The notes beneath the pieces were generated by a model. It had not been told where the DNA came from. It did not search any database and saw only the letters and a list, made by a program, of their open reading frames with translations. Positions 15,291 through 27,629 of a stretch of DNA of 45,937 nt are shown piece by piece. Made by a program: the position numbers and the translations under genes. The stretch is from Nitrospirota bacterium (GTDB lineage Bacteria > JACPQY01), in contig JACPQY010000008.1 of assembly GCA_016190245.1 (NCBI GenBank), forward strand, positions 1-45,937. Reading direction: 5' to 3'. Each line of letters begins with the position of its first letter. Position 1 is the first letter of the stretch.

Positions 15291-15305
15291 TGACAGCGGC
15301 TGTCA
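15291..15305. promoter_or_regulatory. WYL box 1: palindrome at the WYL regulator start
   Basis: TGACAGCGGCTGTCA is a perfect 7+1+7 palindrome whose last base is the A of the ATG at 15305. A possible -10 (TACTGT, 15278-15283) for the regulator lies just upstream. The palindrome would then sit at the transcription start, a position suited to autorepression. The same palindrome recurs at 22302-22316 and 27615-27629. Confidence 0.75.
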
Positions 15306-16351
15306 TGGCGAAGAGGCGAGAATCGAAATCCATGGCCGGGATCACCTACCGGCCGCCGACCTATGGGGCCGCTGCGCGGTTTGCGCAGATCATGTACGGG
15401 CTCCAGCAGCGGCCGCTGGGATGGAGCCTGGAGGCCATGAGCGAAGACCTGCGGCTCCATCCGCGCACCATCGCACGGTATGCGGGGTGCCTTACAAAGG
15501 ACGTGGAGGATAACGAAGGGCGGCCGCTTATCATCTTGGAAGAGCGATACGGGAAGCCGCATCTGCGTCTGGCCGCGAAGCCGGTGGAGCCGCTTGACCT
15601 CAACGCCTCGCTGGCTCTCTCGCTCTACGCGGCCACCACCCTGCTTCGGTTCACGCGGGGGTCCCGGCTGTACGCGAGCCTTGAGGCGGCCCTCCAGAAG
15701 GCACTCGGCCGGCTCAGTCCGGGCGACCGGATGAAGCTCATGTCGCTCGAACGCAAGATCCACTACGTGCCGGACGGGCCGAAAGACTACTCGAACAAGG
15801 CGATCGTGCTCGAACGCGTCGTGGAGGGCCTGCTGCACCAGCGCAGACTGAAAGTGAAGTACACGTCCCTTTCCGGGGGAACGTGGGAGAGCTTGGTCCA
15901 CCCGTATTCCCTCATGATGTACAAGCGGGGCCTCTACATCATCGGGCATTCGGAGAAGCATGGGGACGTGCGCTACCTGGCCATCGAGAGGATTGACGAG
16001 GCCTCGATCACGGATGCCGTTTTCAACTACCCGGTGGGCTATCGTCCCGGCGACTACACGGATGGCTGTTTTGGGATCATTGATGGCGATCCCGTGGATG
16101 TTTCGATCCGGTTCAAGAAGGGCGCCGACGCGCTCATCACCGGCCGCGTATGGCACCCCACGCAGAAAATCACCCGATTGAAGAATGGCGACCTCCGCCT
16201 CACCATGCGCGTCCGCGGCACTGATGAACTCTTGCCGTGGGTCATGTCCCACGGGCCGTATGCCAAGGTGGAGGCGCCGGCGGAACTCCGGTCCGCGGTC
16301 AAGGACTGGCTGGCCGGGATGAAGAGGGGCTACCGATTCAGCGGGCCGTGA
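15305..16351 (+). CDS. WYL-domain transcriptional regulator
   Basis: 348-aa regulator. The N-terminal winged-helix-like region is about residues 15-75 (GWSLEAMSEDLRLHPRTIAR). A middle helical linker follows, then a WYL domain from about residue 180 (HQRRLKVKYTSLSGG, then HPYSLMMYKRGLYIIGHS, the WYL-motif strand, here LYI). A C-terminal WCX-type extension ends at about 345. WYL proteins bind palindromes as dimers and often sense single-stranded nucleic acid. Several control DNA-damage or phage-defence genes. The start may be ATG 15305 or ATG 15332. Truncated copies of the 3' end occur at 17246-17503 and 18593-18722. Confidence 0.9.
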   Translation: MAKRRESKSMAGITYRPPTYGAAARFAQIMYGLQQRPLGWSLEAMSEDLRLHPRTIARYAGCLTKDVEDNEGRPLIILEERYGKPHLRLAAKPVEPLDLNASLALSLYAATTLLRFTRGSRLYASLEAALQKALGRLSPGDRMKLMSLERKIHYVPDGPKDYSNKAIVLERVVEGLLHQRRLKVKYTSLSGGTWESLVHPYSLMMYKRGLYIIGHSEKHGDVRYLAIERIDEASITDAVFNYPVGYRPGDYTDGCFGIIDGDPVDVSIRFKKGADALITGRVWHPTQKITRLKNGDLRLTMRVRGTDELLPWVMSHGPYAKVEAPAELRSAVKDWLAGMKRGYRFSGP

Positions 16352-16562
16352 CGCTGGATGTGCCTTGGCAGGCGGGCGAATCGGTTCCACAGAGCCGGAC
16401 ATATGTCGAGGTATCTCATATCCCTGGAATCGCCTTGACCGCCTACCCGAAATGCAAAAACGGGATGGCCGTTCCTTCGTCCTGTGTTCGGCGGCTGAGG
16501 GGGGTATCTGATGGATGGATGAACCTGAATGGCGTTGTCAGGCGACTCGTTGGGGATTGTGA

Positions 16563-17245: not shown

Positions 17246-17503
17246 GTGGACGTCTCATTCCGGCTAAGAAAGGGCGCCGACGCGCTCATCACCGGTCGCG
17301 TATGGCACCCGACGCAGAAGATCACCCGATTGAAGAATGGCGACCTCCTCCTCACCATGCGCGTCCGCGGCACGGACGAGGTTCTGCCGTGGGTCATGTC
17401 CCACGGGCCGCATGCGAAGGTAGAGGCGCCGGCGGAACTCCGGGCCGCGGTCAAGGATTGGCTGACCGGGATGAGGAAGAGCTACCGATTCAGCGGGCCG
17501 TGA
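17246..17503 (+). pseudogene. WYL regulator 3'-end fragment, copy B
   Basis: About 260 bp that closely match the last 86 codons of the WYL gene (16094-16351). The fragment begins VDVSFRLRKGADALITGRVW and ends at the same stop after RFSGP. The match continues about 18 bp beyond the stop (CGCTGGATGTG). There is no HTH or WYL core, so this is a remnant and not a functional regulator. Amino-acid changes relative to the full gene are mostly conservative. Confidence 0.85.
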
Positions 17504-17564
17504 CGCTGGATGTGGCTTGGCTGTTTGGCGAATTGCACCCAGAGTGAGGAACTGGCGTAGGAAA

Positions 17565-18246: not shown

Positions 18247-18591
18247 GTGATTCCCATCGGAATCCGCATCGGGCAGGAATGGCGGACGGCGCAGGTGTAT
18301 GTCGATTCGGGCTCGATGTACACAATCTTGGCCCCCTCGCTCGTCCCCGGAAGCTTCGATTGGAAAGCCGGCCGGAACGCCCAGGCAACTTCAGGCACGG
18401 GCCAGACCCTTGCCGTTTTTCTGCACGACCTCGACATCCAAATTGGGAACGACCGCTTTGTCGCGCCCGTCGGGTTTTCCTCCGACTTGAAAATCGGCTT
18501 CGACATCCTGGGCCGGAGAGGGATATTCGACCGCTACCGGATCGAGTTCAACGAGCCGAAACGGTTCGTGTCTTTCACGTCGGTGAAATGA
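18247..18591 (+). CDS. Retropepsin-like aspartic protease domain protein
   Basis: 114-aa single-domain aspartyl-protease-like protein. The active-site triad is seen in YVDSGSMYTIL (D-S-G), and the C-terminal block FDILGRRGIFDRYRIEFNE is typical of the bacterial retropepsin-like family partnered with DUF5678. The GTG start at 18247 is provisional. The frame is open upstream through FSYTPIGRHLHPVIPIG, which also looks like the usual family N terminus, but no start codon was found there. It may be translated from a rare start or truncated. Confidence 0.7.
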   Translation: MIPIGIRIGQEWRTAQVYVDSGSMYTILAPSLVPGSFDWKAGRNAQATSGTGQTLAVFLHDLDIQIGNDRFVAPVGFSSDLKIGFDILGRRGIFDRYRIEFNEPKRFVSFTSVK

Positions 18592-18592
18592 T

Positions 18593-18722
18593 GGTGCGCG
18601 TCCGCGGCACGGATGAACTCTTGCCGTGGGTCATGTCCCACGGGCCGTATGCCAAGGTGGAAGCGCCGGCGGAACTCCGGTCCGCGGTCAAGGGCTGGCT
18701 GGCCGGGATGAGCAAGTACTAC
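18593..18722 (+). pseudogene. WYL regulator 3'-end fragment, copy C
   Basis: About 125 bp nearly identical to 16207-16330 of the WYL gene, encoding RVRGTDELLPWVMSHGPYAK and onward, then diverging after GWLAGMSK. It follows directly on the retropepsin-like stop. It is closer to the full gene than to copy B, for example TGAACTCTTGCC and TATGCCAAGGTGGA, so it arose independently of copy B. Confidence 0.8.
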
Positions 18723-18760
18723 AGGTCCGACAGATTCGCACTCGCAGGGGGCGGGCGAGG

Positions 18761-19906
18761 ATGACGTCCCCCGCTTCGCAACTTGGTGACCTGCTCGGCG
18801 TATTGCCGGGCAATCGCAAGGAGCCCTTTGTCACTCAGTTGCTGTCATTCCTCCTACGCTCCGACTCCGAGTTTCGTTCATCCTTCCTCGAGAAGTTTCT
18901 CCGCATTCCCGACGTGTGTGCCGAACACTACGACGTTGTTCCGGAGGATCCGACTGAGCAGGCCGAGGAGGAATCTCCAGAAGCGGAAGCCGATCCCGGT
19001 CGGATGGACTTTACGTTTGTTCCCCAAAGAAATGGATCCCAACTACCCTACATCGGTGTCGAGTGCAAGATTGGTGCCCGATTTGGGGAAGGCCAGCTCG
19101 ACAAGTATGCCTCCGACTTGACGGGCCGAAGTCATCGTCCGAAACCGCGACTATTCGCGATCACGCGGGATGAATTCACCCTAACAGATTTGGGTGCCAA
19201 GGGGCAGAAAGCCGTTCTGCTCAAGGCAACCAGTGGCATGCTGCGTCTTGATGGCAATGGGCTGTGCAGGGAGGGGAACAGGCAGGGATTGAGGACCTGG
19301 AATTGCCTATTCGACGTCATCAGCCCAGATGTTTCTCATTTCACACCTGCGACACGGGCTGGTTTGCGGCACATAAAGGAGGTAGCCATGGCGGAAGCAT
19401 TTCGAGGTTTTCAGAGCCTAAGAACAGGATCAATGACTATGGCCGATCTCGTCCAGGCACGTATTCTCCTCTCTCACCTCACCCGACGTGTGGCCAAGGG
19501 TAAGGGTGCTCATAGAGCACCTACCTTCCACCTGAAGCGCGGAACCTACAAGCCGAAAGAACAAGAGTCCTATCACCACTACCACTTTCTCCACACATGG
19601 AGGAAAGCGGGAAAGAGCTATCTTCACTTGTATGTGGTCGAATACCCAAATGACTCGGAGGTCTACCTGGAAATCCGTTATTGGAAAGGAAGGAGACGTG
19701 CGCGTTCTCTCCATTACCTCAGTCTCAAGATTGGCGGACACAATGCCAAGGATCTGTTGATGGAGAAGGCCAAGCAACCGAAGATAATCGCAGATGCCCC
19801 GGGCAATCTCGCGAAGGTCATCCGGGAGTGGGTTGAGGCCAAGGGATGGGAGCCGAGCGATTGCAAAGGAACATTCGGGGATTTTGACTGTTCTCTCGAC
19901 GAATGA
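18761..19906 (+). CDS. PD-(D/E)XK nuclease-like protein
   Basis: 381-aa protein of unknown family. An N-terminal segment contains the pattern RMDFTFVP then YIGVECKIGA and GEGQLDKYASDL, that is D-x(n)-E-x-K with a downstream Gln. This is the PD-(D/E)XK nuclease core (about residues 85-130) as found in PDDEXK_4-like proteins. The C-terminal half (from about 220) is rich in aromatic and basic residues and unrecognised. The ATG at 18761 follows a purine-rich GGGCGAGG. It is less GC-rich than its neighbours. It could be a restriction or anti-phage nuclease, which is inference. Confidence 0.65.
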   Translation: MTSPASQLGDLLGVLPGNRKEPFVTQLLSFLLRSDSEFRSSFLEKFLRIPDVCAEHYDVVPEDPTEQAEEESPEAEADPGRMDFTFVPQRNGSQLPYIGVECKIGARFGEGQLDKYASDLTGRSHRPKPRLFAITRDEFTLTDLGAKGQKAVLLKATSGMLRLDGNGLCREGNRQGLRTWNCLFDVISPDVSHFTPATRAGLRHIKEVAMAEAFRGFQSLRTGSMTMADLVQARILLSHLTRRVAKGKGAHRAPTFHLKRGTYKPKEQESYHHYHFLHTWRKAGKSYLHLYVVEYPNDSEVYLEIRYWKGRRRARSLHYLSLKIGGHNAKDLLMEKAKQPKIIADAPGNLAKVIREWVEAKGWEPSDCKGTFGDFDCSLDE

Positions 19907-19944: not shown

Positions 19945-20229
19945 CTACCGCAGGACAAGAACCCACAACGCAGCTAGCGAGACGCCGCCCGGGCCATCAA
20001 TGGCCTTGCGGACATCGGCCATCTTGCCGATGGTTCTTCCGCTCGCATCCGTGATGGTGTCACTTTTCACCTTGGCGACAGTGACGCCGGACTTGTCAAC
20101 GATGTCGGTGCCGCGGATCCGCCCGAGCGTCACGCCGGAGGCGTTTCGGATGTCGTTGCCGGCCAGCCGGGCCTCGGTGACGCCCGACTTGTTTCTGAGA
20201 TCGTTCCCCACGAGTTTGTAGTCCGCCAT
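19945..20229 (-). CDS. Small protein of four 16-residue beta repeats
   Basis: 94 aa. Residues 6-69 are four tandem 16-residue units of the pattern G-[NT]-D-[LI]-x-[ND]-x-S-G-V-T-x-x-[RK], as in GNDIRNASGVTLGR and GTDIVDKSGVTVAK. Ser-Gly pairs fall at 15-16, 31-32, 47-48 and 63-64. The regular turn spacing suggests a small four-bladed all-beta fold such as the 4-fold beta-flower proteins. A C-terminal hydrophobic tail (VSLAALWVLVL) may be a membrane anchor. An SD (GGGGG) precedes the ATG. It is the last gene of the minus-strand operon that starts at the WYL-box promoter. Confidence 0.7.
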   Translation of the reverse strand: MADYKLVGNDLRNKSGVTEARLAGNDIRNASGVTLGRIRGTDIVDKSGVTVAKVKSDTITDASGRTIGKMADVRKAIDGPGGVSLAALWVLVLR

Positions 20230-20249
20230 TGAATCCCCCTTTCAGTTTC

Positions 20250-20540
20250 CTACCGGAATAGTCTGTGCCACCAACGGAGATAGAAAGGCTGAGGCCTGAG
20301 TCGCAGAAAGCCCCACCCGAAGTTCCGATTGTTCACGAAGAACCAGTCCCACGCTTTCATGTAGTCGGCCTCCGACAAGTCGGTATCGTAGCCGCGAGTT
20401 TTCAGGGAAGCCACGAAGAAGGCAGCGACGTCCCTCGCCAACTCTCTGTCCGCCTTCTTCACTAGCTGGTCCAGCGCAAGCCTCAAGTTCGGGTCCCGCT
20501 CCAGTAGCTGGGCAACCTGCCGCCAGTCGGTGAGAACCAT
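20250..20540 (-). CDS. Uncharacterised 96-aa protein
   Basis: Not recognised. The first ~60 residues are charged and helical (QLVKKADRELARDVAAFFVA). The C terminus is strongly aromatic and basic (KAWDWFFVNNRNFGWGFLRL, ending LRWWHRLFR), which suggests binding to a membrane surface or protein. It lies 3 nt after the deiminase-like gene and 20 nt before the beta-repeat gene, clearly in one operon. Confidence 0.65.
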   Translation of the reverse strand: MVLTDWRQVAQLLERDPNLRLALDQLVKKADRELARDVAAFFVASLKTRGYDTDLSEADYMKAWDWFFVNNRNFGWGFLRLRPQPFYLRWWHRLFR

Positions 20541-20543
20541 GGC

Positions 20544-21485
20544 CTACCTCCGCCGGGAGACTTCCGCAGCAGACGCGACCTGCTTGGGGTACGTTGCCGT
20601 GATGCAATTCAAGACCCCGCCGTACGCGGCAAGCCGCCTGCAGTCGATTTGATGGTACTCCAGGTCCGGCCTCACCCTTTTCAGGGTCGCCACGGCCGTC
20701 CTGTCCATGCCGACGCCATAGGCGGGGACCAAGACCTTCCTGCCGTTCCTGTAGAAGTTGACGTAATTCCCGGCCGCGCTCGTCAGGCTGTCGGTGACAA
20801 AGCACGGCAGCCTGAGCACGGCTATTCCTGATGGGCCCAGCTTGCCCACCAGACAGTCGAACAGTTCGTTGTGGAAATCCTTCATCTCCTTGTCCTCATC
20901 GTACGATGCCACCATGAGAACATCCTTGTCCAAGAAACGGCAGTAGCCGTCGGCGTGACGGATCGGGTCGCGCTTCTCGTACTCGATAGCGACCAACCTT
21001 ACCCCGAAAGCGGCCTTGAACCAAGCGACCCACCCGGAAGCATCGAGGCCGGTGTTGCAGAGCATGAATTGCTTGGTCACGATGAGAACATCCCTGCCGT
21101 TGTAGACGAAATTGCCGCCTTCGCTGGTGAGGGGCACCCGGCGCAGGGGGAGTTTCAGGCGGCGAGCGATGGCCTCGATTCCTCGTGTGGCGCTCATGGC
21201 GTCGGTGAAGGCGGCGGCGCTTGGCTCCGCGTAGGAGGGTTCGTACTTGGGACACCAGAGGAAGCGAGCGCCCTTCGCCTGGAGGAGGATCGGCGCCCAA
21301 TCGCGGATCCAGAAATCCGTCAGCCAACAGTTCTCCTCGTCCAGGAGCACGACATCCGGCTTGAGCAGGTCAGCAATCTCCCGGAAAGTGTCTTCGAGTC
21401 CGGCTCGCCGCGGTGGCCGCACGAGATACGCCGTTCCCCCCATGAATTCGGCGCTCACAAGCCTACCCAATTGTCTCACGTGCAT
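20544..21485 (-). CDS. Agmatine/peptidylarginine deiminase-fold protein
   Basis: 313-aa guanidino-modifying enzyme fold. Family landmarks: ENCWLTDFWIRDWAPILL (catalytic-region Asp), SEGGNFVYNGRDVLI, DPIRHADGYCRFL (catalytic His-Asp), and GGVLNCITATYP with the nucleophilic Cys near the C terminus. All catalytic positions appear intact, so it may hydrolyse agmatine or arginine side chains. Typical agmatine deiminases are longer and the context is not polyamine metabolism. The ATG at 21485 has a good SD (GAGGAAGGG). A longer start at 21647 would overlap the upstream gene by 14 nt. Confidence 0.8.
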   Translation of the reverse strand: MHVRQLGRLVSAEFMGGTAYLVRPPRRAGLEDTFREIADLLKPDVVLLDEENCWLTDFWIRDWAPILLQAKGARFLWCPKYEPSYAEPSAAAFTDAMSATRGIEAIARRLKLPLRRVPLTSEGGNFVYNGRDVLIVTKQFMLCNTGLDASGWVAWFKAAFGVRLVAIEYEKRDPIRHADGYCRFLDKDVLMVASYDEDKEMKDFHNELFDCLVGKLGPSGIAVLRLPCFVTDSLTSAAGNYVNFYRNGRKVLVPAYGVGMDRTAVATLKRVRPDLEYHQIDCRRLAAYGGVLNCITATYPKQVASAAEVSRRR

Positions 21486-21633
21486 CCTGGGCCCTTCCTC
21501 TGACCTTTTACGATCTCCTGAAGGTGGTATCAGGTCCCGGTCGCGGTTCATCAAGCACTCGGTAGCCTGCCTGATCGTAGTCGGCGATAATCGTCGAGTC
21601 CGCTCCCAGACCGGCGGCAATGCCGGGGGCGGA

Positions 21634-22122
21634 CTAGCCGCGTTCATGGGGAAAGAGCGGCAGTTGGCGGCTGTGAACCCGATACACGCGGGCCAAGACC
21701 TTGGCGACTGCCCAGTACAGATTGGCAGGAATGAATGTCCCTCGTGGAGTGGAAACCTCCAGCGCGCGTGCCAAGGGAGTGTCCTCGCAGATCGGCACGC
21801 GGCCGGCCCGGGCGCTTCCGAGGGCTGAATCGTAGGACAGGTTGCCGCAGACGTCGAGTACGACAGGGGCGATCATGAATTCCGGATCGTAGTGGACGCT
21901 GATGGCGAGGGAGACTCCGTCCACAATCAGCACATCTGGAAGGACATGATCGGGGACGTCTACCAGTCCGTCATCGAGGCCCTCCTCCTGTGCAGGACGA
22001 TCTGTAAGGTGAGCATGCGCGCTTCTTGGCAGGGCCGGAACAACACTCCCGGCGGCAAGCACCGCAAGTCCATTCCTGACGAACGTTCTTCGATCCAAGA
22101 TGGCCTCCTTCCAGTTCATCAT
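21634..22122 (-). CDS. Tat-exported protein of unknown function
   Basis: 162 aa. The N terminus has a twin-arginine signal: DRRTFVRNGLAVLAAG, then SVVPALPRSAHA with an AxA-like cleavage site near residue 38. The mature part is acidic at first (EEGLDDGLVDVPDHVLPDV) and not recognised. The start ATG overlaps the stop of the 52-codon gene upstream (ATGA). It belongs to the WYL-box operon. A second Tat-signal protein is made from WYL box 3. Confidence 0.7.
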   Translation of the reverse strand: MMNWKEAILDRRTFVRNGLAVLAAGSVVPALPRSAHAHLTDRPAQEEGLDDGLVDVPDHVLPDVLIVDGVSLAISVHYDPEFMIAPVVLDVCGNLSYDSALGSARAGRVPICEDTPLARALEVSTPRGTFIPANLYWAVAKVLARVYRVHSRQLPLFPHERG

Positions 22123-22277
22123 TGCGGGGACCTGCGGGAATATCTGGAGATCCGTTCGAGGCCCTTCTTGATGCGTTCACCCTCGCGCAGGACGTTTTTC
22201 CAGTGGTGAAGAAACCATCTCCAGGGGAAGTCATCTTCCCGAATCCGCTCCACGCTACGGCTTGGTTTCCGTTTCAC
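22119..22277 (-). CDS. Small basic protein (52 codons), first gene of WYL-box operon
   Basis: Not recognised. The peptide begins VKRKPSRSVERIREDDFPWR and continues WFLHHWKNVLREGERIKKGL, ending SRRSPQ: basic, helical and rich in Trp. Support that it is real: the stop overlaps the next start as ATGA, the GTG start lies 7 nt after a -10 (TAGACT) placed exactly 11 nt from the WYL palindrome, and codon use looks coding. Leaderless translation would be needed. It could instead be a leader peptide. Confidence 0.55.
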   Translation of the reverse strand: MKRKPSRSVERIREDDFPWRWFLHHWKNVLREGERIKKGLERISRYSRRSPQ

Positions 22278-22284
22278 ACGCTTG

Positions 22285-22333
22285 AGTCTATCCCCGGCGC
22301 GTGACAGCCGCTGTCACATCTCCCGCGTATACT
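22285..22333. promoter_or_regulatory. WYL box 2: symmetric divergent promoter
   Basis: The palindrome TGACAGCCGCTGTCA (22302-22316, extended by one base pair each side) is flanked at exactly 11 nt on both sides by -10 hexamers: TATACT on the plus strand (22328-22333) toward the AAA+ gene, and TAGACT on the minus strand (22290-22285) toward the 52-codon gene. No proper -35 exists for either, so the palindrome occupies about -38 to -24 for both. A bound dimer would either activate or block both promoters at once. Confidence 0.75.
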
Positions 22334-22355
22334 GACGAGGCATGGAGGGGGGAAC

Positions 22356-24497
22356 ATGAAACGACGCGGGAAAGTCACCTCGGTCCCTGCACCGGAGGCA
22401 AGCCCGTTTGGACCATGCGTGGACGACTACGCCCACAACCTGCTCGTGGGCACTTCGCTCCGGCGTTTGGATGAGGCCGGCCTACGGCGGATTGAGTCCG
22501 TCGAGCCGGTGCTCAGGATGGTCTGTGCGACGACGGCGAGGGTTGCCGGGAGGGGCGCCAAGATCGGGGACTTCACGCGGGAAGACCTCCGGCGACGGCT
22601 GCGCGCTTATCTGCGTGGGTGCAGGAATCAGACGCGACCCCCGGGACCTGCAGATTCGCGGGTGGCGGACAACCTTGGAGTGATAGGGAACCTCTTGGAT
22701 CTGGACGAACACCAGAGGGCGGTGTTTCAGTTCATTCTGGCGCTGCACGATAGCCGCGAGATCAAGGAAATTGTGGAGACCTTCGGTGCCGTCTCGGCTG
22801 TCCGGGCGGCTTCGCTCATCGCGGCTGCCACAACGATATCGAACGATCACGTCATGAGGGCACTGGATCGAGCCGGTGGCCTTCTCGCAAGTGGCTTGGT
22901 GGAGATTGACGCGAAGGGCAGCTACTCCCTCGAGGGCAAGGTTACGCTCAAGCCCGGTGTTCTGGATGAATGTCTTGCGCCCGGCCTTGACCGTGATCGG
23001 CTCATCTCGCGGTTTCTGCCCCCGGCAGGGGTGAGTCAACTTGGCTGGGATGATTTCGAGCACATGCGGGTGCCGGGCCGCACGGCTCGAGACCTGCTCG
23101 CCGGGACTCTCCAGTCTCGGCGTCCGGGGGTGAACGTCCTCTTCTACGGGGAAACCGGAACCGGCAAGACGGAACTGGCGAAGCTGCTGGCTCGAGACAT
23201 TGGCACGACACTGTACGTGGCCGGACGGGCGGATGAAAGCGGGGAGTCTGCCCACGCATGGGAGCGGCTGTCGTCCCTGCTCCTTGGTGAGCGGCTTCTC
23301 CGAGACGGCACATCACTCCTCCTCTTCGATGAAATGGAGGATCTCTTTACATGGGAGTTTCATGGCACCCACCCACGCGGTGTCCCCTCGATGTCGAAAC
23401 AGTGGTTCAATAACCTCCTGGAAAACACCCCCGTTCCCACCATTTGGATCACGAATCTCGTCGAAGGAATCGACCGGGCGTTTCTTCGGCGGTTTTCCTA
23501 CGCCGTGGAATTTCGCCCAATCGGACCCCGGCAGCGCGCCCGGGTGTTGAATCGGCATCTTGGTGAACAGGGTCGAATTCCTCCATCGGACGTAGAGCAG
23601 ATGGCGCAAAAGTTCACCGTCAGCCCAGCTCAACTCCGAAGTGCCGTGGAGTCCGCCCGCTTGATTGCCGGTACTGCTCCTCCAGATCGCGAAACGATTG
23701 AGCACGTGCTCGCGCCGATGCAAAAGATTGTAACGGGCGAGGATCCCGAAAAGCGTCCTGTGTTCGACGCCACCGCGTACCGGATTGACGCCCTGAACAG
23801 TGTTGAGGATCTTGGACGGATCGCGGATCAGCTCACAAGGTGGGAACCGTCGCGAGGAGCCGGGGTCTCAATGTGCCTCTACGGCCCGCCCGGCACGGGG
23901 AAGTCCGAATACGCGAAATATCTCGCGCACCGCATGGGCAGACCCATACTCTACCGGCACGCATCCGACATCCTGGGCCCCTTCTGGGGGCAAACAGAAG
24001 CGATGATCGCGGAGGCCTTCCGCAGGGCGACGGACGAGGATTCGCTCCTCCTTTTCGACGAGGCGGATTCATTCCTCCGCGACCGGCGGTCGGTGATGCA
24101 TTCCTGGGAGACGATCCAGGTGAACGAATTCCTTCAGCAACTCGAATCGTTCCGGGGTGTGGTCGTCTGCACGACCAATCTTTGGCACAACATTGACGAG
24201 GCGGCGCTCCGGCGTTTCATTTTCAAGGCCGAATTCCGCTACCTCCGGCTGGAGCAGGGTGTGGCGCTATTCCGCAGCAGTTTCTCCCCCTACCTTGACC
24301 GGCCGCCCTCGGAGGATGACGTTGGGATGGTGTGCTCTGCCCTCGCCGGTATCGGCAACCTCGCTCCCGGCGATTTCGCAGCGGTCAGCCGACGCTGGCG
24401 GGCTATGGGAAATCGCTCGACCGCCCGCGAGCTGGTTCAGGCTCTCGTGAGCGAGGCACGTGCAAAGCCCGGCGCCGCCGGACCGATTGGGTTTTAG
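22356..24497 (+). CDS. Tandem AAA+ ATPase
   Basis: 713 aa with an N-terminal helical domain (about 1-230) and two AAA+ modules. Module 1 has Walker [14 protein letters not shown] (about 264), Walker [11 protein letters not shown], sensor WITNLVEG and an arginine-finger-like FLRRF. Module 2 has Walker [14 protein letters not shown] (about 509), Walker [11 protein letters not shown], sensor VVCTTN and ALRRF. Both look catalytically intact, recalling CDC48-like unfoldases or remodelers. No protease domain is present. An SD (GGAGGGGGG) precedes the ATG, and the mRNA leader is about 16 nt. The 3' end overlaps the convergent ClpX-type zinc-finger gene by 4 bp. Confidence 0.88.
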
Positions 24498-25009
24498 CGA
24501 CGATATTGCGCGTCAAGCGAGCGAAGATAGCACACCGCGCCGACGGTCGAGGCAAGCAGATTGGCCAGGAAACGTCCGAATCTCCCGAAGAGGAACGAGG
24601 CGGACGGTCCGTCTGTCTCGTCGCTCCGATCCAAGGGGAATGCCACGATCGACACGCCTCTGCCGAGGAGGTAGTCGCCGGCGATGCCGATGCGGTTCAT
24701 GCACTCGATAGCTTTCCACTTCGTTGAAAACGCCCCGTGCCAGGTTACATGCCCCCTCCGCTCGGTCTGAATCAGATAGATCTCCTTCGGGTACCGGCTG
24801 CACGCTTCGGGAGAGTCCCCGGCGGGGCTTTTGTTCAGGATTCTCCGCTTGTCCCGGCTTCCGGTCGCTTCGGCGACAATGTCAGCGCAAAGCTCTACGC
24901 ATTCATCGCAGATGCAGACGCCGGGACCGGCGATGAGCTTGCGAACCTCGTGCTGTCCTTTGCCGCACCAGGAACAAACCGGCAGGCCTGACTCAGCTTC
25001 GCTGGACAT
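24494..25009 (-). CDS. Stand-alone ClpX-type C4 zinc-finger protein
   Basis: 171 aa. Residues 11-45 match the ClpX N-terminal zinc-binding domain closely: [19 protein letters not shown], then [13 protein letters not shown], with zinc ligands C12, C15, C34 and C37. In ClpX this domain dimerises and binds substrates and adaptors. Here no AAA+ domain follows. The rest ([20 protein letters not shown] onward) is unrecognised and ends in a hydrophobic stretch ([16 protein letters not shown]). It is last in the operon from WYL box 3 and overlaps the phosphoesterase gene by 17 nt. It could serve as adaptor for the neighbouring AAA+ ATPase. Confidence 0.8.
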
Positions 25010-25745
25010 CGCTTTCGGCGGGAGCGTCCAAGAGCGTGCCCTGCGGCCCGGGGTTGATGATGAGGGTGTCGCCGATTGTATCGGTTGCGCCGAAACGGTC
25101 GTGGAAGTGGCCGCAGATGACGATGCGGGGTTTCAGGACTTCGGCGATGTTCCGGACGATCCGACTGCCCTGTGCTCGTCCCCCGGAATGGCCTTGGAAT
25201 TGTCCGTTCTCGTAGATTGGCTCATGACCGCACCCTCCGCCTGGTCCTGCGATGCCGTCCTGGCATCGGTCGGTGCTTCGGGTGCAGGCCGTCCGGTGGC
25301 CGCAGCACGCCGTGCCTGCCGGGGGGTAGTGGGACACGAGAATCAGGGGCAGCGACAGGTTGAGTTGACTCCGAATGAGGTGCAAATACGTGTCCATGGC
25401 TTCGAGGTCCTCTTCGTGGTGTGGGCTGAGGTCGTCGGTGCCGTCAATTCCGGCGATCTGAACACCGGCCACCTTCACAACCTTGCAGCCGATCCAATGG
25501 CAGCCTGGGTAAAACGCTTCGATACGCTTACACATTTTCGGTGACTCATGATTCCCCGCGATGAAGTAGACGGGGATCCCAGCGTCGGCGATGAGGCGCC
25601 ATGAATCCTCCCGACTCTCTTCGAACACCGCAAAATCTCCGCCGCAAACCAAACACTCGACCTTCTTTTCCTGAGCCAGGGAAGCGATCTTCCTTGCTGA
25701 CCCTGCCGAGCCGTGATGATCGGTGAAGGCCACGAAACTCGTCAT
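24993..25745 (-). CDS. Calcineurin-like metallophosphoesterase
   Basis: 250 aa with all five metal-binding blocks of the superfamily: AFTDHHGS (D-x-H), VCGGDFAVF (GD), AGNHES (GNHE), VSHYPP and ICGHFHD (GHxH). An insertion rich in Cys, His and Gly ([20 protein letters not shown]) between blocks 4 and 5 could bind metal. The substrate is unknown; the fold covers nucleic acid, nucleotide and protein phosphatases. The ATG at 25745 overlaps the previous stop as ATGA. Confidence 0.87.
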
Positions 25746-27577
25746 GTCGACACCTGAATCCTTGTTCCATACGACCGGACGCACAACGCCGCGCCCACGA
25801 TGGAAATCAGCGGGTCAAGTTCGTCCATGAGCTGGCGGCCGTGATCAGCTGCCTCAGGGGAGTTCAGTTGCTCGTACAGTACTTGTCCATGGACCTCGTC
25901 GGGACTCTGGCGGAAATGTGTAAGGGCTGCGAGAGTACCTTGCTGCCCGGTTTCCAAGAGCCAGGTAAATGCCGCCGCGCGCGCTCTGGCATCGTGGCAC
26001 GAATCGAGCCCATGCGAGATCTCAGCCGCCCATGCAGGCGTACCCCAGCGGCCGCACAGAAGACGTCCCCATGTTGCTTCGGGTTCGGTGGAGATCCCCT
26101 GCCAACCACCGAATAGTTCGAGGATGTTGCGGGGGACGACATCGGGGCGGAAGAAAAACACGTGTTCTGCAAGAGAAAGACGGTCTTCCCCTGATGCCGT
26201 AGCTATCCAGTCGCTAAGATCCGGCTTGAGTCCTGTCACTTGGTTCCACCAGAGAGGCTGAAGCCCTCCGGATTCTCGCAGGCGGTCATAGCTCAGGTCA
26301 TGCAGCCATTGACGGCCTGCCACGGAACAGGCGAGACGTTTCATCATCCACCAATCCCAACCCTCATGCCCCACCTCCCTATGGAGTTTCCGGATGGCGG
26401 AACGGAGGGAGTTCTGGTCCAACAGGTAGCCCAGCGTGAAAACGGCTTCCAACCTATCTTGGGCCGGCGCTGCCCGGGCGACGCGGACAAAGTCATCCGG
26501 AGCGAACCGTTCGCCCTGACTGATGAGCCAGCGCCCAACACGTGCGATTGCATCCGTCCCCCCATTCGTCCATCGCTCGGGGTGAGGATCCGCGAGCGCG
26601 CGGTCGAGTTTTCGTCGGGTCTCACGCGGGTCGAGAGAGATTGAACCGCCCCGAGGCCCATGCCCGAGCAATTTCCCAGCCGCCATGAGGACTGCGACAG
26701 GGCTACGCGAGTGCTGATACACGTCCAGCAGCAAATGGGCGCACCTGCAACAGTTCGCGACTGCCTCGCCGGATACGGTGGGCCGCCGGGCGGAAGGATG
26801 GACGACTTCCGGACTGTGCCAGCCGCCGGGGGGAGAGAGAAGGAAGAGCGCTTCTTCCGGGTGGCTGGCAGTTGCGATGAGTCTGTGGAATTCGGCGTCC
26901 CATGGGGTGGGCGGCCAGTCGAAGAACGCGAGCAGGATTTCGGTTTGGATTCTCTCATCCACATCCGAAAAGCGGGGGCCGAGTACTGGCATTATCTCCT
27001 CCGGGGGGAAACTTGAAAGAAAGCCGGGCCAGAGGTCATCCACCGGCCAAGTCTCGCTATTAGCGATCGCATGCAAACAGTAGTGTCGGTATTCGGGGGA
27101 GACCTCGAACAGCTTGGATCGCGCGTACCAGTCGCCATTGTTTGCGCGGTCCCGCAAAAGGGCCAAGCACCTCGGGGTGGCGGGTAATGGGCAATCCCAG
27201 AAATCGTAATCGAAATTCAACAGTGAGTCCTTCATGGAGAGTTGCTTCTCAATCCAATTCGGCTCAAGCCTTGCTCTTGCGACTGAAAGGGCGCGCATGT
27301 AATTGGCAGCCTCGGCGCACGGAGGCGGCAATCGAAGGTTCTTGATCCATTCGAGGGCCTTGGGACTCCCGCTCCGGCCGAGCGCATCTATCACGACGGG
27401 GTCCATGGGGCCGCCCCGGCACTCCCATTTCAGAAGGATGCTGGTGGCGCGATCAAGTGACACCCTGGTGTCTCCAGGCATCGTTGCCGGCTCTCGCCAT
27501 GGAGCCCGCAGCACGGGGCGGGCGAGGAGTCCAGCTGTGGCGACCCCCGCGGTGCAGATGAATTCCCTTCGTCTCAT
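25742..27577 (-). CDS. Tat-signal alpha-solenoid (HEAT-like) protein
   Basis: 611 aa. It starts with a twin-arginine-type signal (MRRREFICTAGVATAGLL). The rest is helical with repeating pairs reminiscent of HEAT repeats (DPVVIDALGRSGSPKALEWI near the N terminus, LAALTHFRQSPDEVHGQVLY near the C terminus) and many Trp residues. No catalytic motif is recognised. A strong SD (AGGAGG) lies 5 nt before the ATG and a -10 (TACCAT) 11 nt from WYL box 3. It heads the three-gene operon with the phosphoesterase and zinc-finger genes. Confidence 0.75.
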   Translation of the reverse strand: MRRREFICTAGVATAGLLARPVLRAPWREPATMPGDTRVSLDRATSILLKWECRGGPMDPVVIDALGRSGSPKALEWIKNLRLPPPCAEAANYMRALSVARARLEPNWIEKQLSMKDSLLNFDYDFWDCPLPATPRCLALLRDRANNGDWYARSKLFEVSPEYRHYCLHAIANSETWPVDDLWPGFLSSFPPEEIMPVLGPRFSDVDERIQTEILLAFFDWPPTPWDAEFHRLIATASHPEEALFLLSPPGGWHSPEVVHPSARRPTVSGEAVANCCRCAHLLLDVYQHSRSPVAVLMAAGKLLGHGPRGGSISLDPRETRRKLDRALADPHPERWTNGGTDAIARVGRWLISQGERFAPDDFVRVARAAPAQDRLEAVFTLGYLLDQNSLRSAIRKLHREVGHEGWDWWMMKRLACSVAGRQWLHDLSYDRLRESGGLQPLWWNQVTGLKPDLSDWIATASGEDRLSLAEHVFFFRPDVVPRNILELFGGWQGISTEPEATWGRLLCGRWGTPAWAAEISHGLDSCHDARARAAAFTWLLETGQQGTLAALTHFRQSPDEVHGQVLYEQLNSPEAADHGRQLMDELDPLISIVGAALCVRSYGTRIQVST

Positions 27578-27597
27578 GGGTACCTCCTGAAGTCGCT

Positions 27598-27629
27598 ATG
27601 GTACCGGCAGGGGTGGACAGCCGCTGTCA
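27598..27629 (-). promoter_or_regulatory. WYL box 3 with -10 for the solenoid operon
   Basis: A 13-bp perfect core GACAGCCGCTGTC (27616-27628) lies within a 15-bp site with one outer mismatch. On the minus strand it is followed after exactly 11 nt by TACCAT (27603-27598), then a ~15-nt leader with SD and the ATG at 27577. The geometry is identical to WYL box 2. Confidence 0.72.

Follow-up and report, generated by a model that had tools for sequence, protein, structure and literature searches.

A putative WYL-controlled island around a tandem AAA ATPase in a Nitrospirota bacterium

Regulons of WYL-domain transcription factors are among the closest described counterparts of the locus considered here, an interval of nine genes around a tandem AAA ATPase (positions 19945-27629) in a stretch of 45,937 nucleotides from a Nitrospirota bacterium (contig JACPQY010000008.1; hereafter the window, in whose coordinates positions are given; the source genome is 3.3 Mb). 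DriD of Caulobacter crescentus is an activator of the WYL-WCX class and of a type that senses single-stranded DNA (ssDNA). Its sites follow the consensus ATACGAC-N7-GTCGTAT and cover the -35 position at one distance from the -10 element, the -35 consensus being matched at 1-2 of 6 bases, and the site next to driD serves to activate the divergently transcribed operon rather than driD itself (PMC12340889). PafBC, the mycobacterial case of sigma adaptation, is likewise a WYL activator that substitutes for the -35 contact and has an ssDNA ligand, and both DriD and PafBC govern host damage responses (PMC12340889, PMC11804915). Members of the BrxR/CapW family act as repressors; for BrxR, a WYL protein that binds inverted repeats within defence islands, repression was demonstrated by experiment (PMC9122601). 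In the ARG-centric ADP-ribose conflict systems, which combine a WYL regulator with nucleases, phosphatases and variable cargo around an ADP-ribosylglycohydrolase, the WYL proteins have also been proposed as repressors (PMC9503650, 2022).

All nine open reading frames (ORFs) listed in an earlier note on this DNA were recovered, at the same positions and with the same overlaps, and most are recognised by Pfam profiles. They form three transcripts. The first minus-strand operon (22277-19945) encodes a 52-amino-acid (aa) protein (p52), an FlhB-C-like protein with a Tat-type signal, a deiminase, a 96-aa protein (p96) and a beta-flower protein. The tandem AAA gene stands alone on the plus strand (22356-24497), and a second minus-strand operon (27577-24494) encodes a HEAT-like protein with a Tat-type signal, a metallophosphoesterase and a ClpX-type zinc-finger protein. 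Overlaps measure 4 nt (p52/FlhB-like) and 14 nt (FlhB-like/deiminase) in the first operon, and 17 nt (zinc finger/metallophosphoesterase) and 43 nt (metallophosphoesterase/HEAT) in the second; the AAA and zinc-finger genes overlap convergently by 4 nt (24494-24497). Two genes just outside the interval belong to the island story: that of the WYL regulator (15305-16351), and that of a PD-(D/E)XK-like protein (18758-19906), a presumed member though it has no operator of its own. The explanation that we would on balance back, from sequence comparison, is a WYL-controlled conflict or stress island, probably an ssDNA-induced variant of a WYL/tandem-AAA conflict island that carries new cargo.

Operators, promoters and the WYL regulator

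The 13-mer GACAGCnGCTGTC occurs five times in the genome, against about 0.4 expected. One copy lies at the wyl start, one is shared by the divergent AAA/p52 promoters and one precedes the HEAT operon; the remaining two fall within unrelated ORFs, for which reason a regulatory role was rejected for them. The expectation per 12 kb is 0.0014, and the chance of three copies in 12 kb is about 5e-10. The sequence TGACAGCnGCTGTCA is present at the wyl start and in the divergent AAA-p52 intergenic region, with a one-change version upstream of HEAT. The operators and promoters in the window are as follows.

15291-15305, no strand: putative WYL operator, overlaps the start codon of wyl; TACCAC box at a distance of 12 nt in the minus direction
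22302-22316: palindrome TGACAGCCGCTGTCA, shared by the divergent AAA and p52 transcripts
27615-27629: palindrome GGACAGCCGCTGTCA, HEAT operon
22285-22315, minus: predicted promoter of the p52-FlhB-deiminase-p96-beta-flower operon, GACAGCGGCTGTC-N12-TAGACT
22303-22333, plus: predicted promoter of the AAA gene, GACAGCCGCTGTC-N12-TATACT; palindrome shared with the minus operon
27598-27628, minus: predicted promoter of the HEAT-metallophosphoesterase-zinc finger operon, GACAGCGGCTGTC-N12-TACCAT

The three operon promoters have in common the pattern GACAGC-n-GCTGTC-N12-TAnnnT, in which the palindrome covers the -35 position. TAnnnT follows the TGTC half-site at exactly 12 nt in all three (chance about 4e-6 by a simple composition estimate), and none has a usable -35, the hexamers matching at 1-2 of 6 bases. 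The full pattern is found six times in the 3.3 Mb, where about 0.7 would be expected; three of the matches are the operon promoters and a fourth lies at a second WYL gene. At the AAA gene the operator is 41-53 nt upstream of the start, while the WYL gene is 6 kb away. The shared operators that the earlier note had described are thus real, the palindrome standing at both divergent transcripts and at the HEAT operon with an extra copy at the wyl start. Its proposal that all three transcripts are under WYL control draws strong support from this putative three-promoter operator and from the recovery of the same operator at promoters of AAA relatives (see below).

The WYL protein of the window has WYL and WCX domains above cut-off; its helix-turn-helix (HTH) itself is unmatched by Pfam, and an R-T-x-x-R segment resembling a recognition helix is common to much of the WYL set. 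Its best solved relatives are the DriD entries 9cu3, 9pfq and 8tp8 (E about 1e-9). Like the DriD sites, those of the window have a GAC-N7-GTC core, lie over the -35 position, keep one distance to the -10 element, and accompany a poor -35. Because of these features, and because the closest structures are those of DriD, activation is favoured over repression. The regulons differ: DriD regulates didA, bapE, recJ and dnaG, and the window regulator would instead serve an AAA island. A strict PafBC reading was rejected: PafBC is encoded as two adjacent WYL genes whose products form a heterodimer, and its site is not a palindrome, whereas the window has a perfect palindrome and the island a single intact wyl gene.

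A WYL repressor of the BrxR/CapW kind, occupying the -35 position and keeping the three promoters shut until it is released by a ligand, would have published parallels in BrxR and in the ADP-ribosylglycohydrolase islands, and the operator overlapping the wyl start would suit autorepression. However, all three promoters lack a usable -35 and have one exact operator-to-(-10) distance, a constancy that an activator requires and a repressor does not, and the closest structure is that of an activator; we regard repression as rather unlikely.

The second WYL gene, a paralogue with 52% identity by genome search, has the operator GACAACCGTTGTC with TATCAT at its start (C75:32973), facing a divergent two-gene operon whose larger protein carries DUF6745. 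This second WYL locus thereby repeats the driD arrangement. The divergent operon of this DriD-like locus (L135, 7988-9091 and 6361-7918) consists of genes for a 98-aa 'RQGDVL' protein and the DUF6745 protein. Elsewhere in the genome (G000, C78:40479 and C78:43089) the full promoter pattern has a further match, 2.6 kb away from a third and distant WYL gene, perhaps by chance.

The tandem AAA family and its genomic setting

Both ATP sites of the AAA protein are intact (K271/D325-E326/R378-R379 and K516/D568-E569/R619-R620), with Walker A, Walker B and arginine fingers kept at each, and the two complete sites together with a conserved GDF/IGF C-terminus form invariant columns in family alignments. 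An AlphaFold2 model built from 45 family members has a mean pLDDT of 89, and Foldseek gives p97, Rix7 and Cdc48 as the best PDB matches. Two AAA rings are predicted, as in p97/Cdc48 and Rix7, whereas the N-terminal helical region differs and identity is 16-19%. From the modelled fold we infer a probable role in protein remodelling. The anti-phage system IetAS was considered and rejected, the IetA model scoring 76.6 bits against a cut-off of 510 and none of ten scanned proteins matching IetS.

The protein belongs to a tandem AAA 'ATP-binding protein' family (PHROG 10401) of plasmids and chromosomes, with which it shares about 30-50% identity, the IGF C-terminus, a WYL neighbour and the same operator; the cargo at other loci differs from that of the window. 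The set of relatives comprises 94 loci, 14 on plasmids (13 gene-annotated) and 80 beyond these from a scan of 84,980 species. The best plasmid matches have 33-38% identity and cover up to 87% of the protein; the closest relatives in the species scan have 48% (L042), 43% (L043) and 50% (L044). A WYL gene is adjacent or close in most of the plasmid loci examined, and lies within 700 bp of the AAA gene in 39 of the 94 loci (40 of 52 WYL matches are that close).

GACA-N5-TGTC is present in the AAA promoter region of 16 loci, an 18.7-fold enrichment relative to the remainder of the loci. The GACA arm ranks highest of the 256 four-base arms at a 5-base spacer, enrichment is essentially confined to spacer 5, and in 7 of the 16 loci TAnnnT follows at N11 or N12. 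As the motif had been taken from the window beforehand, this amounts to an independent recovery of the operator, among loci that are related by descent and not fully independent of each other.

Neighbours at the plasmid loci include BREX-2, SNF2, PLD-helicase, UvrD, PD-(D/E)XK, ADP-ribosylglycohydrolase, HEPN, RtcB or Sir2 genes. Across the set, 98 neighbours classified by Pfam and PADLOC include nucleases, helicases, ADP-ribosylglycohydrolase, GmrSD, DrmD-like and MkoA-like proteins, and the PD-(D/E)XK class seen in the window also adjoins AAA relatives elsewhere. The operator stands before neighbouring operons as well (Sir2-like, RtcB or phosphoesterase genes) in L075 and L109, and before a Sir2-like gene in L114. 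These settings support, at the level of sequence, an AAA-WYL core that recurs in the defence islands of many bacteria. The earlier suggestion of a defence or conflict island thus holds for that core, through its neighbours in other genomes, and the statement that the genes match no known system was too strong, for the regulator, the operator layout and the AAA family all have relatives. The literature search found no paper naming the AAA-WYL core, which is no proof of its being undescribed.

Some individual loci deserve mention. In the AAA island of Actinobacillus indolicus (L075, 1909-9670) three operon promoters carry GACA-N5-TGTC, one as a doubled site; the cargo includes three Sir2-like and two nuclease-like proteins, and no WYL gene turned up in the flanks examined. 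The AAA-WYL island of Marinobacterium (L109, 1697-9588) has the operator before a PrpA-like phosphoesterase gene, RtcB and the AAA gene, a possible link of the regulon to RNA repair. The AAA homologues of genome G094 stand alone, with neither WYL nor cargo, and no AAA relative was found in the viral contigs searched.

Cargo and origin of the island

The genes of the island, with the profile or structural evidence for each, are listed here.

15305-16351, plus: WYL-WCX transcription factor with N-terminal HTH region, DriD-like (PF13280 and PF25583 above cut-off; DriD structures)
18758-19906, plus: PD-(D/E)XK nuclease-like protein, PDDEXK_4 (PF14281, E 0.0011, below cut-off; D84, E102-C-K104, QLDKY)
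19945-20229, minus: 5-fold beta-flower domain protein with a short hydrophobic tail (PF21785, E 1.4e-10, above cut-off)
20250-20540, minus: 96-aa orphan with an aromatic tail (no Pfam family above cut-off)
20544-21647, minus: enzyme of the agmatine/peptidyl-arginine deiminase family (PF04371, E 8.8e-27; alignments to 1zbr and 2cmu)
21634-22122, minus: Tat-signal-like protein of 162 aa with an FlhB/SctU C-terminal-type domain (PF01312, E 2.5e-13; FlhB structures aligned; RRTF)
22119-22277, minus: 52-aa basic protein, first in its operon (ORF; no family)
22356-24497, plus: tandem AAA ATPase of p97/Cdc48-like architecture (PF00004 twice; family alignment; AlphaFold2; Foldseek)
24494-25009, minus: ClpX-type C4 zinc finger fused to an uncharacterised region of about 120 aa (PF06689, E 1.5e-17)
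24993-25784, minus: calcineurin-like metallophosphoesterase with complete motifs (PF00149, E 1.5e-12)
25742-27577, minus: Tat-signal-like helical-repeat (HEAT-like) orphan (weak PF13646)

The deiminase keeps its catalytic residues (WIRD, EGG, HAD and NCIT, with the catalytic Asp, His-x-Asp and Cys present) and qualifies for the superfamily PF04371, falling short of the agmatine deiminase equivalog cut-off; its relatives elsewhere are agmatine-deiminase-like, with 22-32% identity. Of the two Tat-signal proteins foreseen in the earlier note, the supposed alpha-solenoid looks like a HEAT-type helical repeat, its single-sequence model being all-helical and of low confidence, while the 162-aa one turns out to be a relative of the FlhB/SctU C-terminal domain. 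Membership of FlhB/SctU proper was rejected: the N-terminal membrane domain is absent and DGVS replaces NPTH, so that the protein cannot self-cleave as FlhB does. The supposed four-repeat beta protein is a 5-fold beta-flower.

Homologues of the deiminase, FlhB-like, metallophosphoesterase, HEAT, beta-flower, 96-aa and 52-aa proteins are absent from the flanks (up to 10 kb) of the 94 AAA relatives, and a ClpX-type finger occurs near them once, 8.5 kb away (L111). In 385 other genomes the 96-aa protein has no homologue and the HEAT protein no real one, one marginal local HEAT-like match aside; nor was the HEAT protein found in the scan of 84,980 species, which detects close relatives only. The metallophosphoesterase has no match on plasmids, where matches to the zinc finger are mostly ClpX itself. 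By the refuting condition that the earlier note had set, the nine genes do not recur together in the genomes searched, and what was put forward as an undescribed nine-gene system narrows to a recurring WYL/tandem-AAA core with cargo seen only here. That they form a single functional unit is unproven: co-regulation in this one genome stands, co-occurrence elsewhere does not. An ARG-centric ADP-ribose system was rejected, no ADP-ribosylglycohydrolase being recognised in the window.

The region from 16.4 to 27.7 kb has 60.5% G+C, compared with 66% on both flanks, and the sole compared genome of the same family offers weak AAA matches only (best E 1.5e-8); on both grounds the island was probably acquired. 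This bears on whether the genes might instead serve a general, SOS-independent response of the lineage to DNA damage or protein-quality problems, and not an anti-phage one. Such a role would fit the host functions of DriD and PafBC, and neither the exported proteins nor the deiminase are typical defence effectors; PADLOC models find in the operon proteins only WYL, generic AAA and phosphoesterase matches, with no system-specific model. The signs of acquisition tell against it, as does the occurrence of AAA relatives on plasmids and beside BREX, DISARM-type, GmrSD, UvrD, PD-(D/E)XK and toxin-antitoxin genes, and we consider it possible but unlikely.

The 3' end of wyl recurs in two downstream copies, with 89% and 97% identity (16094-16381, 17246-17533, 18595-18711), and small genes lie near the repeats (DUF5615, PIN-like; DUF2281; DUF5678). 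These are signs of stepwise accretion. Between the duplicated ends (18247-18591) there is also a gene for a 114-aa protein with, by eye, the look of a retropepsin-like aspartyl protease (DSGSMYTIL) and no Pfam match. The three operons might thus share an operator and no common function, unrelated genes having gathered under one WYL regulator, as the duplications between 16.1 and 18.7 kb, the lack of co-occurring cargo in any relative and the highly variable cargo of other AAA-WYL islands would all allow. The tight overlaps inside each operon and the near-identical promoters speak against this, as does the phosphoesterase class, met again in a small number of other AAA-WYL islands and in one of them (L109) preceded by the same operator; we give such an assembly a minor chance.

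Possible mechanism and significance

Several observations weigh against the preferred reading of an ssDNA-induced AAA-WYL conflict island. The relationship between the window protein and DriD is no more than distant and covers the WYL/WCX part. The sites of the window lack the outer arms of the DriD consensus (ATAC/GTAT), which several AAA relatives partly keep (e.g., L036 and L078), and the DriD spacing, read off its published promoter, is N11 versus N12 in the window. Repression, too, could operate from a palindrome at -35, and it is the mode of action published for defence-linked WYL proteins such as BrxR. Among the AAA relatives 55 of 94, many of them from Burkholderiales, have no adjacent WYL gene, so the function of the ATPase need not depend on one. 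A joint function of the cargo with the ATPase is suggested only by the shared promoters and gene packing.

What the window holds is one DriD-like WYL protein and a presumed operator that, in three promoters, covers the -35 position and keeps a constant spacing to the -10 element. On the preferred reading, ssDNA arising from phage replication or DNA damage would bind the WYL domain, and the activated dimer would then bind the palindrome and recruit RNA polymerase to promoters whose own -35 is not functional, so that the three transcripts would be made together. The main product would be a p97/Cdc48-like double-ring ATPase, its fold supported by prediction, that may unfold or extract proteins. 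The accessory genes would be island-specific cargo: a deiminase acting on guanidino groups, a phosphoesterase, a ClpX-type finger, perhaps for substrate presentation, and two proteins that are probably exported. The most likely outcome would be that foreign or damaged protein complexes are removed or inactivated, or that growth is arrested. A more far-reaching version is improbable in our view: here the p97-like unfoldase, an arginine-modifying deiminase, the phosphoesterase, a ClpX-type adaptor and the exported partners would form one damage-triggered system under an ssDNA-sensing WYL activator, for protein modification and extraction across cytosol and envelope.

The locus would tie an uncharacterised, widespread family of p97-like AAA proteins to a specific regulator, operator and signal (ssDNA). 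Defence-linked WYL proteins of the BrxR type have been described as repressors, whereas the promoter layout of the window argues for activation. The rule GACA-N5-TGTC-N11/12-TAnnnT could locate further co-regulated cargo, and the prediction that follows is that DNA damage or phage replication would induce AAA islands through DriD-like activators.

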